Shown here: positions 12,915-36,769 of the stretch, piece by piece | Numbering within the stretch: the first letter of the stretch is position 1 | Layout of the letters: every line of letters starts with the position of its first letter | DNA from: Gemmatimonadota bacterium | GTDB lineage: Bacteria > Gemmatimonadota > Gemmatimonadetes > Gemmatimonadales > Gemmatimonadaceae | Assembly: GCA_003223455.1 (NCBI GenBank) | Contig: QHVE01000023.1 | Coordinates: 6,832-68,373, forward strand | Reading direction: 5' to 3' | DNA: 61,542 nt | Notes under the pieces: generated by a model | What the model was told of the DNA's origin: nothing | The model's input: the letters and a program-made list of their open reading frames with translations, nothing else | The model's database searches: none | Translations under genes and position numbers: made by a program

Positions 12915-13523
12915 TCATCCGCTTCCGTCAGTTGCAGCGGCAGTCGCGGACGTCGCGCTCTCGGACGCAGCGCGCTCGCCCTCTGGGGAGCGCTCCTGCT
13001 CGCTCCTCGTGAGCGTGATGTACGTGACCGTGTCCCATGCGTTGTGGATGCCGATGAACACCAGCAGCAACGTCGCGGCGCCGACGAAGAACAGCGACTC
13101 GTGCTCATGCCGCGTGAGCGCCAAGGCGCCGCCCACGAGCGAGCCGTATGCCAGTACGGGCAGCGCGGCGTGCCACAGCCAATCCTCGAGCACTGGTTGG
13201 TACCCTTCCTGTCGGCGTGCACGCCGGATGACGATCGCGGCGTAGAGGAGGCCGAAGAGGCCAACGGTGCCGAGCACCACGGCGACGGACGCGAGGCTCC
13301 GCCACGGTGCGCTCAGCGTCGCCGACGTGAGCAGCGCGACGCAGAAGTGCACGATCGACGGCGTCCCGAACGCGGAGATCTGATCTTCCGACGCCCGCGA
13401 CGACACCTCGGCCACGAGCGCCATGACGACGAACTGCAGGCCCGTGAGCGCCGCGGCGGACGAGCCGACGATCACGTAGTAGCTCTCCCAACCGGCGAGC
13501 GGCGCCAGGATCGTTTCGGGCAT
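12915..13523 (-). CDS. Integral membrane protein of unknown function
   Basis: A 202-residue protein with about five hydrophobic helices (YYVIVGSSAAALTGLQFVVM, SLASVAVVLGTVGLFGLLY, ALPVLAYGSLVGGALAL, LFFVGAATLLLVFIGIH) and a hydrophilic, Ser/Ala-rich tail of about 30 residues. No transport or catalytic motif is recognised. It lies 31 bases upstream of the Rossmann gene on the same strand. The heptamer array begins 4 bases upstream of its start codon, so the normal ribosome-binding position is occupied by an ACCAACC repeat on this strand. Confidence 0.82.
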   Translation of the reverse strand: MPETILAPLAGWESYYVIVGSSAAALTGLQFVVMALVAEVSSRASEDQISAFGTPSIVHFCVALLTSATLSAPWRSLASVAVVLGTVGLFGLLYAAIVIRRARRQEGYQPVLEDWLWHAALPVLAYGSLVGGALALTRHEHESLFFVGAATLLLVFIGIHNAWDTVTYITLTRSEQERSPEGERAASESATSATAAATDGSG

Positions 13524-13526
13524 CGG

Positions 13527-13600
13527 GGTTGGTGGTTGGTGGTTGGTGGTTGGTGGTTTGTGGTTTGTGGTTTGTGGTTTGTGGTCTGTGGTTTTGGTGG
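13527..13600 (+). repeat. G-rich heptamer array, left flank of four-helix-bundle gene
   Basis: Four tandem GGTTGGT units (13527-13554), four GGTTTGT units (13555-13582) and one GGTCTGT (13583-13589), then a degenerate GGTTTTGGTGG. The GG-TT-GG pattern could fold as a two-tier G-quadruplex; that is inferred from the spacing of GG pairs. The same heptamer occurs inverted at 14096-14130. Confidence 0.95.
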
Positions 13601-13645
13601 AGCTGCCAAGCCACTCGACCTGGAATCGCTCGCCGACCTAACCGA

Positions 13646-14011
13646 TTAACCGCCCGAACCGCGCCGCACAACAGTGATGAGTCGCGCGAGCATCTTTGCC
13701 ACGCGCAGCGATTCTCCGCGCAACTGCTCGCCCGACGAGATGTCGCCGAACCCGAGGTCGTTCGCAATCTTGAGCTGACACGCAAGCTCTCTCGCCGAGC
13801 CGGATGCGTAGAAGAGGAACGAAAGCAGCTCTGGATTGCCACGGCGGCCGCATCCCTCGGCGATGTTCGAAGCGATTGACACCGCCGCGCGGCGCATCTG
13901 CGAGGTGATTCCGAACCGCTCCGCCGGCGGAAATGAGGCCGTGTGCCGATAGGTGGCAATTGCCAACTGATGGGCAAGCTCGGCGACGTGCAATTTGTTG
14001 CTGTCCTGCAT
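13646..14011 (-). CDS. Four-helix bundle protein, 23S rRNA IVP family
   Basis: A 121-residue all-helical protein of the 23S_rRNA_IVP / four-helix bundle family (TIGR02436 type). Diagnostic pieces are the SQMRRAAVSIASNIAEGCGR helix and the later SARELACQLKIANDLG helix, with conserved polar residues between. Members occur inside intervening sequences of some 23S rRNA genes, and related proteins serve as accessory variability determinants in diversity-generating retroelements. No reverse transcriptase or rRNA is nearby. The gene sits 56 and 79 bases from inverted arrays of a GG-rich heptamer, suggesting that gene and arrays form one unit. Its function here is unknown. Confidence 0.92.
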   Translation of the reverse strand: MQDSNKLHVAELAHQLAIATYRHTASFPPAERFGITSQMRRAAVSIASNIAEGCGRRGNPELLSFLFYASGSARELACQLKIANDLGFGDISSGEQLRGESLRVAKMLARLITVVRRGSGG

Positions 14012-14090
14012 CGCTGAACATTGCCACCCACGCGGAATCGCGAGACATCATTCCGCCGCCGACGAGGGCAAGATACCGCCCCGTTCGCCT

Positions 14091-14130
14091 CAACCACGAA
14101 CCACAAACCACAAACCACAAACCACGAACC
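14091..14130 (-). repeat. G-rich heptamer array, right flank (inverted)
   Basis: Read on the minus strand from 14130: GGTTCGT, three GGTTTGT, GGTTCGT, then a partial GGTTG. It is the same repeat as at 13555-13582 in opposite orientation, so the four-helix-bundle gene lies between inverted arrays. Confidence 0.93.
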
Positions 14131-14197: not shown

Positions 14198-14815
14198 ATG
14201 CGCCCAAGCGTGATGCACGTGTCGTTCGTACTCCCCGCTCTCGCTGCCGTTCTCCTGTTCGCGCCCAGTGCGTCGAGCGCGCAGCAGGCAAAGCAGGCTG
14301 GCGCCCCCCTGGCGACCAAGATGACGCCCGAGTTGATCGCCACCAAGGCCGCGCTCGAGAAGTATCAGGATCCGATCGTCGCCGTGCGCGACGGCTTCTT
14401 CTCCACCGTGGCCTGCATCGACTTCCCGCACGGCGCGGTCGATGGTCCGATCACCTATCCGCCCGGCGCGATGGGGGTGCACCTGCTCAACACGGCGAAC
14501 ATCGGTCCGAAGCTCGATCCCGCGAAGCCGCAGGTGCTGATCTACGAGCCGGTCGCCGGGAAGCTCAAGCTGGTCGCGGCGGAGTGGTTCATGCCCGAGC
14601 AGGTCGCGGGCGGCAAGGCGCCGGAGATCTTCGGCCAGACGCTGTACGGGCCAATGGCCGGTCACGCTCCGATCATGCCGGCCGAGTTCCGGCACTACGA
14701 TCTGCACGTCTGGCTGTGGAAGGACAACCCGAGGGGGATATTCACCTCGACCAACTCCGCAGTGAAGTGCGATCCGAAGGCGCCGTACACGCACGCCGAA
14801 GGGATGCACCACTAG
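14198..14815 (+). CDS. Secreted protein of unknown function
   Basis: About 205 residues with a signal peptide (FVLPALAAVLLFAPSASSAQQ). The mature part begins with a helical Lys-rich segment and continues with two cysteines (TVACIDFPHG and AVKCDPKAPY), which could pair, plus His-rich pieces (GMHH end). I do not assign a family. ATG 14198 is chosen because it places the signal peptide at the start; the open frame upstream runs through the repeat array. The gene ends just before a strong bidirectional hairpin shared with the amidase on the other strand. Confidence 0.82.
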   Translation: MRPSVMHVSFVLPALAAVLLFAPSASSAQQAKQAGAPLATKMTPELIATKAALEKYQDPIVAVRDGFFSTVACIDFPHGAVDGPITYPPGAMGVHLLNTANIGPKLDPAKPQVLIYEPVAGKLKLVAAEWFMPEQVAGGKAPEIFGQTLYGPMAGHAPIMPAEFRHYDLHVWLWKDNPRGIFTSTNSAVKCDPKAPYTHAEGMHH

Positions 14816-24900: not shown

Positions 24901-24935
24901 GGTGCGGAGGGGCGCAGGAAGTTTGCCAGCAGGAA

Positions 24936-24991
24936 GTGACTCAGTGACTCAGTGACTCAGTGACTCAGTGACTCAGTGACTCAGTGACTCA
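24936..24991 (+). repeat. GTGACTCA tandem array, copy A
   Basis: Seven perfect copies of the octamer GTGACTCA. It runs directly into GTGGAACGG and the hairpin at 24996-25031. On the other side of the hairpin two degenerate units read TGAGTCAC, so the array is partly mirrored. Copy B lies at 36603-36674. Confidence 0.97.
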
Positions 24992-24995
24992 GTGG

Positions 24996-25031
24996 AACGG
25001 CCTCGGGATGCTCCTGTCTCCCGAGGCCGTT
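24996..25031. terminator. Hairpin attached to GTGACTCA array, copy A
   Basis: Arms 24996-25008 (AACGGCCTCGGGA) and 25019-25031 pair perfectly with a 10-base loop. On the minus strand it follows the ABC permease stop and could end that operon. The stem is identical to the one at 36679-36714 while the loops differ. Confidence 0.85.
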
Positions 25032-25037
25032 TCTGAG

Positions 25038-25103
25038 TCACTGAGTCACAGCGGCGCGGAGCGCCGCGCATCACTGAGTCACAGCGGCGCGGAGCGCCGC
25101 GCG
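25038..25103. repeat. 33-bp direct duplication with an internal palindrome
   Basis: Two adjacent 33-base copies (25038-25070 and 25071-25103) differ only in the last base. Each carries CACTGAGTCAC, an octamer-array-like piece, followed by a GC-rich palindrome GCGGCGC-GGA-GCGCCGC. The second copy ends exactly at the ABC permease stop codon (25104). Confidence 0.92.
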
Positions 25104-36196: not shown

Positions 36197-36598
36197 GTGT
36201 CACGCACTCGCTTCCTCGCCCCTCTTGCTGCTCTGGCGTTGCTCGCCGCGTGTGATACGCGCGTCGTCACCGAGCCGCCGTTTCAGCCGCAGATCGTCAA
36301 CGTCCGCAACGACTTCGCGTTCCAGGTCACCGATCTGGACCTGTTCACGAGCGATGTGGTCTACACGTGGCAGAGCGACGGCCGGGCCGCGACGGTGGTG
36401 CAGACACCGAGCGTGCTCACCGGCGCGGCGACGCTCTTCATCGCCGACGGCTCGGGCGTGCAGGTGTATCAGCGCTCGCTCGGCGAGAACGGGACCTTCT
36501 CGACACAGGCCGGAGTGCCGGGGACCTGGACCGTCCGGCTCAAGTTCTCCGAGGCGAGCGGCGCGGCGACGTTTCATTTGACGAAGCCGGTGCCGTGA
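36197..36598 (+). CDS. Putative lipoprotein
   Basis: About 133 residues with lipobox LAAC near 19 after a short hydrophobic signal (FLAPLAALALLAAC). The mature part is beta-rich (FAFQVTDLDLFTSDVVYTWQ, GTWTVRLKFSEASGAATFHL) and resembles small periplasmic sandwich domains, but no family is assigned. GTG 36197 gives the signal peptide directly; the open frame upstream is in non-coding sequence. The GTGACTCA array copy B starts 5 bases after its stop. Confidence 0.8.
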   Translation: MSRTRFLAPLAALALLAACDTRVVTEPPFQPQIVNVRNDFAFQVTDLDLFTSDVVYTWQSDGRAATVVQTPSVLTGAATLFIADGSGVQVYQRSLGENGTFSTQAGVPGTWTVRLKFSEASGAATFHLTKPVP

Positions 36599-36602
36599 CG
36601 CC

Positions 36603-36674
36603 GTGACTCAGTGACTCAGTGACTCAGTGACTCAGTGACTCGGTGACTCAGTGACTCGGTGACTCAGTGACTCA
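36603..36674 (+). repeat. GTGACTCA tandem array, copy B
   Basis: Nine octamers, seven GTGACTCA and two GTGACTCG (units 5 and 7). The array runs into GTGGAACGG and the same hairpin as copy A at 24996. The right side has only a degenerate piece (CACTGCACTCAG). Confidence 0.97.
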
Positions 36675-36678
36675 GTGG

Positions 36679-36714
36679 AACGGCCTCGGGAGGCATTTGC
36701 TTCCCGAGGCCGTT
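36679..36714. terminator. Hairpin attached to GTGACTCA array, copy B
   Basis: Arms AACGGCCTCGGGA (36679-36691) and its complement (36702-36714) around a 10-base loop (GGCATTTGCT). The stem is base-for-base identical to copy A. It lies between the lipoprotein and the convergent hypothetical gene and could terminate both. Confidence 0.85.
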
Positions 36715-36769
36715 TCCACTGCACTCAGCCACCACTCCCACTCCCCACTCCCCACCCACCGTACCAGGA

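Follow-up and report, generated by a model that had tools for sequence, protein, structure and literature searches.

The window, by which we mean the whole 61,542-nt stretch of Gemmatimonadota DNA that was analysed, very probably contains one copy of a small mobile hairpin element, the intervening sequences (IVS) of 23S rRNA being the form of this element that is inserted into rRNA. Its layout would be a heptamer array, a gene of the IVP family and an inverted heptamer array, usually about 430–620 bp in all, with arms that belong to the element itself and that would pair, in a transcript or in single-stranded DNA, into a long stem with IVP in the loop. At the level of sequence, the case is made by the anatomy of the copies, its generality, the presence or absence of the unit as a whole, target-site duplications (TSDs), purifying selection on IVP, and arms that turn over while their complementarity is kept.

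The sequence-only reading of the window had described a 121-residue 23S IVP gene between arrays of opposite orientation, and profile searches, tandem-repeat detection (TRF) and arm alignment bear this out. The protein matches PF05635 (E = 2.9e-30; 105.1 bits against a curated cut-off of 33.8) and TIGR02436 (E = 1.6e-30; 105.5 bits against 24), and has a PDB relative in 2gsc XCC0516 (E = 1.5e-19). The gaps between gene and arrays measure 47 nt (left) and 80 nt (right), rather than the 56 and 79 bases first given, and the left array lies 3 bp from the start codon of its 202-aa neighbour. The arms are 91–93% complementary over 42–43 nt (93% over 42 nt for the right arm against 13544–13585), with an alignment score of 69, compared to a maximum of 38 at random positions in related loci. 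Folded as RNA, the 616-nt unit is predicted to place both arms in a single long helix (z = –5.4). Neither Rfam families nor tRNAs were found in the window, and the profile search returned no family for the 205-aa right neighbour. Divergent genes flank five IVP loci of the same-order set, the window copy among them; no relative with both window neighbours in synteny was found, and the evidence of mobility therefore comes from other loci.

Table 1. Features of the window copy, its neighbours and possible gene-less relatives (positions in the window)
Feature	Position	Strand	Description
Left neighbour	12915..13523	-	202-aa predicted membrane protein, weak BT1/fbt matches; context, outside the element
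Left arm	13527..13598	G-rich strand on +	GGTTNGT heptamer array, 72 bp, 10.4 copies, TRF score 102; pairs with right arm
IVP / four helix bundle gene	13646..14011	-	121 aa; occupies the loop that the arms enclose
Right arm	14092..14130	-	left-arm heptamer inverted (AACCACA on +), 39 bp, 5.6 copies (TRF)
Right neighbour	14198..14815	+	205-aa protein; context, outside the element
Possible gene-less relative	24935..25102		GTGACTCA array, GGCCTCGGGA..TCCCGAGGCC palindrome, inverted array
Possible second gene-less relative	36595..36755		palindrome GGCCTCGGGA..TCCCGAGGCC, between convergent genes

Within the order, IVP occurs in 50 of 60 genomes, with a maximum of 12 copies. When each flank of 74 IVP loci of the order was aligned to the reverse complement of its partner flank, the median arm score was 59, compared to 21 for mismatched flanks (99th percentile 34) and 22 at random positions (99th percentile 32). 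Between 86 and 88% of the loci exceeded the 99th percentiles of the controls, with a repeat unit that changes from locus to locus; in 12–14%, arms were undetected by the same alignment. The gene neighbourhood, read from metagenome-assembled genomes with a home-made codon-usage caller outside annotated records, is also patterned: the downstream neighbour points toward IVP in 52 of 63 cases, IVP is antisense to tandem neighbours by 29:6 (p = 1e-4), and the median distance from the start of an arm is 7 bp to a neighbouring stop codon and 70 bp to a start codon. At L220:950-1215, inverted GGCGGTC arrays enclose a gene other than IVP, which we take to be DUF6504-like and to stand between imuB-like and dnaE2-like genes.

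A similar arrangement was found well beyond the order. A hand-written consensus IVP protein used as query, which biases the sample to consensus-like IVPs, yielded 80 loci from Chloroflexota, Acidobacteriota, Nitrospirota, Cyanobacteriota, Planctomycetota, Pseudomonadota and others. Among lags 4 to 12, their flanks are periodic at lag 7 alone (best 28-nt identity 0.75 versus 0.48), and in 57 of 69 loci both sides carry at least two consecutive inverted TCAGCNN heptamers, a pattern seen in 1 of 143 controls and, for the wrong strand, in 6 of 69. Random positions served as the control here because the arms share a consensus, which inflates the mismatched-flank control; complementarity was greater within than across loci (p = 3e-12). 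The TGGTTTG of the window may be placed in the TCAGCNN frame, as a loose fit. No IVP was found in 50,697 phage records, and IVP is present on six IMG/VR contigs (L347–L352).

That arrays and gene together form a small mobile element, as had been suggested from the window alone, gains support from this equal layout in many phyla, from presence and absence of the unit among same-genus genomes at other loci, and from 5-bp TSDs on plasmids. Between two genomes of one genus, the seven IVP loci of G036 correspond in G051 to three empty sites, one remnant and three occupied sites; two of the three empty sites lie at directly overlapping stop codons and are scar-free, and the remnant (locus B) has an internal deletion of ~210 bp. 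For G131, from the genus of G013, four of six sites are readable: one is occupied, two (of L096 and L100) have an IVP-less hairpin of other sequence, and one (of L098) is without IVP. Cyanobacterial conjugative plasmids that are ~98% identical provide the junctions: without the element the site reads AAAAA-GTAAT-TAAC, and with it AAAAA-GTAAT-[AAATCAGAATTCAG..IVP..GAGTTCTTCTTT]-GTAAT-TAAC, with a 5-bp TSD (GTAAT), and at a second plasmid site TTCTA is duplicated likewise. The TSDs that characterize transposable elements are thus present in the family at the two sites where they can be read, sites B–E being too divergent and the target tip of an rRNA copy having been replaced. Both TSDs fall outside the arms, and arrays are absent from the empty sites. 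Further insertions on plasmids separate cas10 from cmr3 in PCC 7003, where PCC 7002 is empty, and nrdB from nrdA in N. edaphicum, and a sister Nostoc plasmid has one in an adjacent gap. Elements would insert chiefly at the ends of genes, in some cases between stop codons that overlap, and the two youngest insertions have duplicated 5 bp of their target. CRISPR-Cas operons hold IVP elements at L361 (cas10/cmr3, PCC 7003) and L373 (cas6/cas4, Anabaena sp. 90). An unrelated dispersed palindrome, CAGGCTAAAGCCTGTGCTCGG..CCGAGCACACCCTTCAGGGTGTG (L069:4251-4333; also L216, L217 and L219), is present in G036, missing from the matching G051 gap and found elsewhere in G051, and appears to be another mobile palindrome family.

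The window genome itself has five places with IVP: intact genes in the window and on contig C20, a divergent full-length match on C8, and fragments on C57 and C66. Inverted repeats also surround the copies on C20, C57 and C66, with a separate unit at each. Of the two outcomes that the sequence-only reading had named as refuting its idea, one, relatives that all have the gene at a shared position but lack arrays, was not seen. The other, arrays without the gene, does occur, and such arrays are most plausibly derivatives that have decayed or that lack the gene. GGTTNGT arrays extend beyond the IVP gene to at least eight other inverted pairs in this genome that lack IVP, and such IVP-less GGTTNGT and related arrays nearly always run G-rich first, C-rich second. 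In a census of 461 kb of the genome, arrays of 7 and 8 bp are almost all intergenic, and those within genes mostly have other periods. The same 461 kb contain six GGCCTCGGGA..TCCCGAGGCC palindromes with array-like, mostly inverted sequence on either side; in four of them the array on one or both sides is strong. These palindromes may be terminators, or derivatives of the element that lack its gene, and the relative at 24935..25102 is a possible IVP-less derivative. Decay can be followed through G051 locus B, C57, C66 and the first site of plasmid pC052_E in Nostoc C052, which keeps the left array and an apparent truncated IVP; internal deletion of IVP would leave gene-less inverted arrays as decayed copies. 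Two of the palindromes in the window, at 24999-25028 and 36682-36711, are terminator-like and lie between inverted 8-mer arrays (GTGACTCA), and 25038-25102 is an exact 33-bp tandem duplication with a small GC hairpin, adjoining an inverted GTGACTCA array.

The gene and the arms evolve differently. For L072/L226, dN is 0.028 versus a dS of 0.284 (dN/dS about 0.1), which indicates purifying selection on IVP as judged from sequence. At the orthologous L073/L227, the arms are wholly different between species and pair within each (within 71/60, cross 14/16); such compensation could reflect selection on the stem or, at least in part, homogenisation or palindrome repair by template switching. Paralogues at different loci can have arm sequence in common (L098/L099), and the nearest IVP comes from the same genome in 22 of 65 cases, compared to 3.7 expected (20 of 63 with one locus no longer counted twice). 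An alternative that we consider unlikely, although it retains some weight, has a MITE-like non-autonomous transposon carry IVP as a passenger, with the arrays as terminal inverted repeats and an ordinary DDE transposase, encoded elsewhere in the cell, mobilizing it in trans. The elements share with MITEs and other non-autonomous transposons their small size, inverted ends, TSDs and gene-less derivatives; 5-bp TSDs with inverted ends are typical of DDE transposition, and the gene-less inverted arrays of the window genome resemble MITEs. However, the termini are locus-specific arrays that vary by locus and phylum, unlike the conserved ends recognized by a transposase, and the cargo is always IVP, under purifying selection, in many phyla with no shared partner.

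The connection to rRNA comes from Azospirillum lipoferum 4B, in which a 23S gene on AZO_p2 (Rfam RF02541) contains IVP with arms GATTCAGAGGACGGATGACAGAGGACGG.. that fold as a single stem (z = –10). A 23S copy on another replicon of this organism has identical aligned flanks and no element, but a normal 19-nt hairpin tip, GTGTGATCTTCGATCACGC; the tip was lost at the insertion, and the element stands in its place. From its place in the rRNA model, the insertion site is probably helix 45, the site of the Coxiella IVS. Because this 23S copy has the anatomy of the intergenic elements, including their heptamer arms, we link rRNA IVS to them. The Coxiella IVS itself has tandem heptamers (GACAGAT) beside its ORF, a 28-bp stem, and excision by RNase III; neither TSDs nor an intergenic family are described there, and the origin and function of rRNA IVS are called unclear (PMC4990558). 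The window copy shares with 23S IVS the protein family and a stem of terminal inverted repeats with the ORF in its loop, but it is intergenic, with no rRNA in the window and hence no enclosing 23S helix, and has long G-rich arrays.

The Azospirillum insertion point, a 23S hairpin tip, would also suit a different interpretation, in which the arrays belong to the host, as bidirectional terminators or as intergenic repeats prone to slippage, and IVP elements insert into hairpin tips, the arms being the target. In agreement, IVP-less arrays are common in the window genome and are known from Xanthomonas, Nostoc, Beggiatoaceae and Geobacter (PMC4692102, PMC4679880, PMC2700814), and L112, an IVP copy from the genus of the window genome, lies inside a GGCCTCGGGA..TCCCGAGGCC-type palindrome of the kind also found without IVP. 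We nevertheless set aside the idea that the arms were there as a target before insertion, since no arrays stand at the empty sites; with TSDs outside the arms and arm sequence common to paralogues at different loci, this account is improbable. More improbable still is that IVP is a resident regulatory or terminator gene passed on vertically, that slippage made its flanks repetitive, and that the empty sites are deletions: arms that adjoin neighbours' stop codons could act as terminators, but TSDs at two independent sites, scar-free empty sites at overlapping stop codons, clustering of IVPs by genome, and sister plasmids with insertions in different neighbouring gaps all argue against it.

Mobility dependent on a reverse transcriptase (RT) or a Y1 transposase was also considered, and rejected. 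The earlier statement that rRNA and RT are absent holds, in that the window has no rRNA and RVT_1 has no match in the window genome, which is 96% complete; none was found in 12 genomes with at least seven IVPs, seven such IVP-rich genomes lack both RVT_1 and Y1, and IVP number does not correlate with RT or with Y1 (Spearman 0.09 in the Y1 comparison). Diversity-generating retroelements (DGRs) have an accessory protein, Avd, that is a four-helix-bundle relative of IVP. A DGR remnant, or another RT-dependent element with an Avd-like protein, is suggested by that kinship but is the least probable origin and largely refuted for the order, there being no RVT_1, and so no RT with TR/VR near an Avd gene, in the window genome or in the IVP-rich ones. 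REP/BIME elements with RAYT (Y1) similarly share intergenic palindromes at gene ends but differ in that the arms of IVP elements are tandem heptamers and that seven IVP-rich, near-complete genomes have no Y1 to accompany them; the window genome itself has one Y1. With no link to RT or Y1, the mover is therefore either IVP with host enzymes or some other transposase, and the former seems favored on sequence grounds because the gene is constant and the ends are variable.

Returning to the mobile hairpin element, a pentameric IVP protein may bind its own stem, and IVP would act as a mobility or protection factor with host enzymes, not with RT or Y1. To our knowledge, the IVP four-helix-bundle protein has no nuclease or polymerase domain. 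RNase III would cut the hairpin out of transcripts, as it does for 23S IVS, and insertions could thereby be tolerated. A broader and more tentative proposal, which we hold as possible though somewhat doubtful, is a bacteria-wide class of transposable elements in which pentameric IVP and the heptamer-array stem constitute the mobility system, hairpin DNA enters 5-nt staggered breaks or hairpin tips, and rRNA IVS and many orphan heptamer repeats are members or remains.

No paper that joins IVP to heptamer arrays was found in the open-access literature, where the arrays are known separately. Heptamer repeats have been reported without a link to a gene in Xanthomonas and Nostoc, including 70 inverted pairs in Xanthomonas (PMC4692102), in Beggiatoaceae as TAACTGA (PMC4679880), in Geobacter (PMC2700814), and in Nostoc trnL P6b (PMC4476775). 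These repeats share with the elements 7-bp units, inverted pairs, and a G-rich strand toward neighbouring stop codons, and TCAGTTA, of which TAACTGA is the complement, fits the TCAG(C/T)NN consensus. They differ in that their descriptions are gene-less and explain them as G4, regulator or slippage features. A single family with a defined gene, arms, empty sites and TSDs would tie rRNA IVS to these repeats, so far explained piecemeal. The nature and movement of IVS may become testable through the element family, with Trichormus variabilis ATCC 29413, Picosynechococcus PCC 7003, Gemmatirosa kalamazoonensis and Azospirillum lipoferum 4B as named strains suited to work on mobility and RNA processing. 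Overall, the element offers a probable role for a large family so far annotated just as 'four helix bundle protein'.
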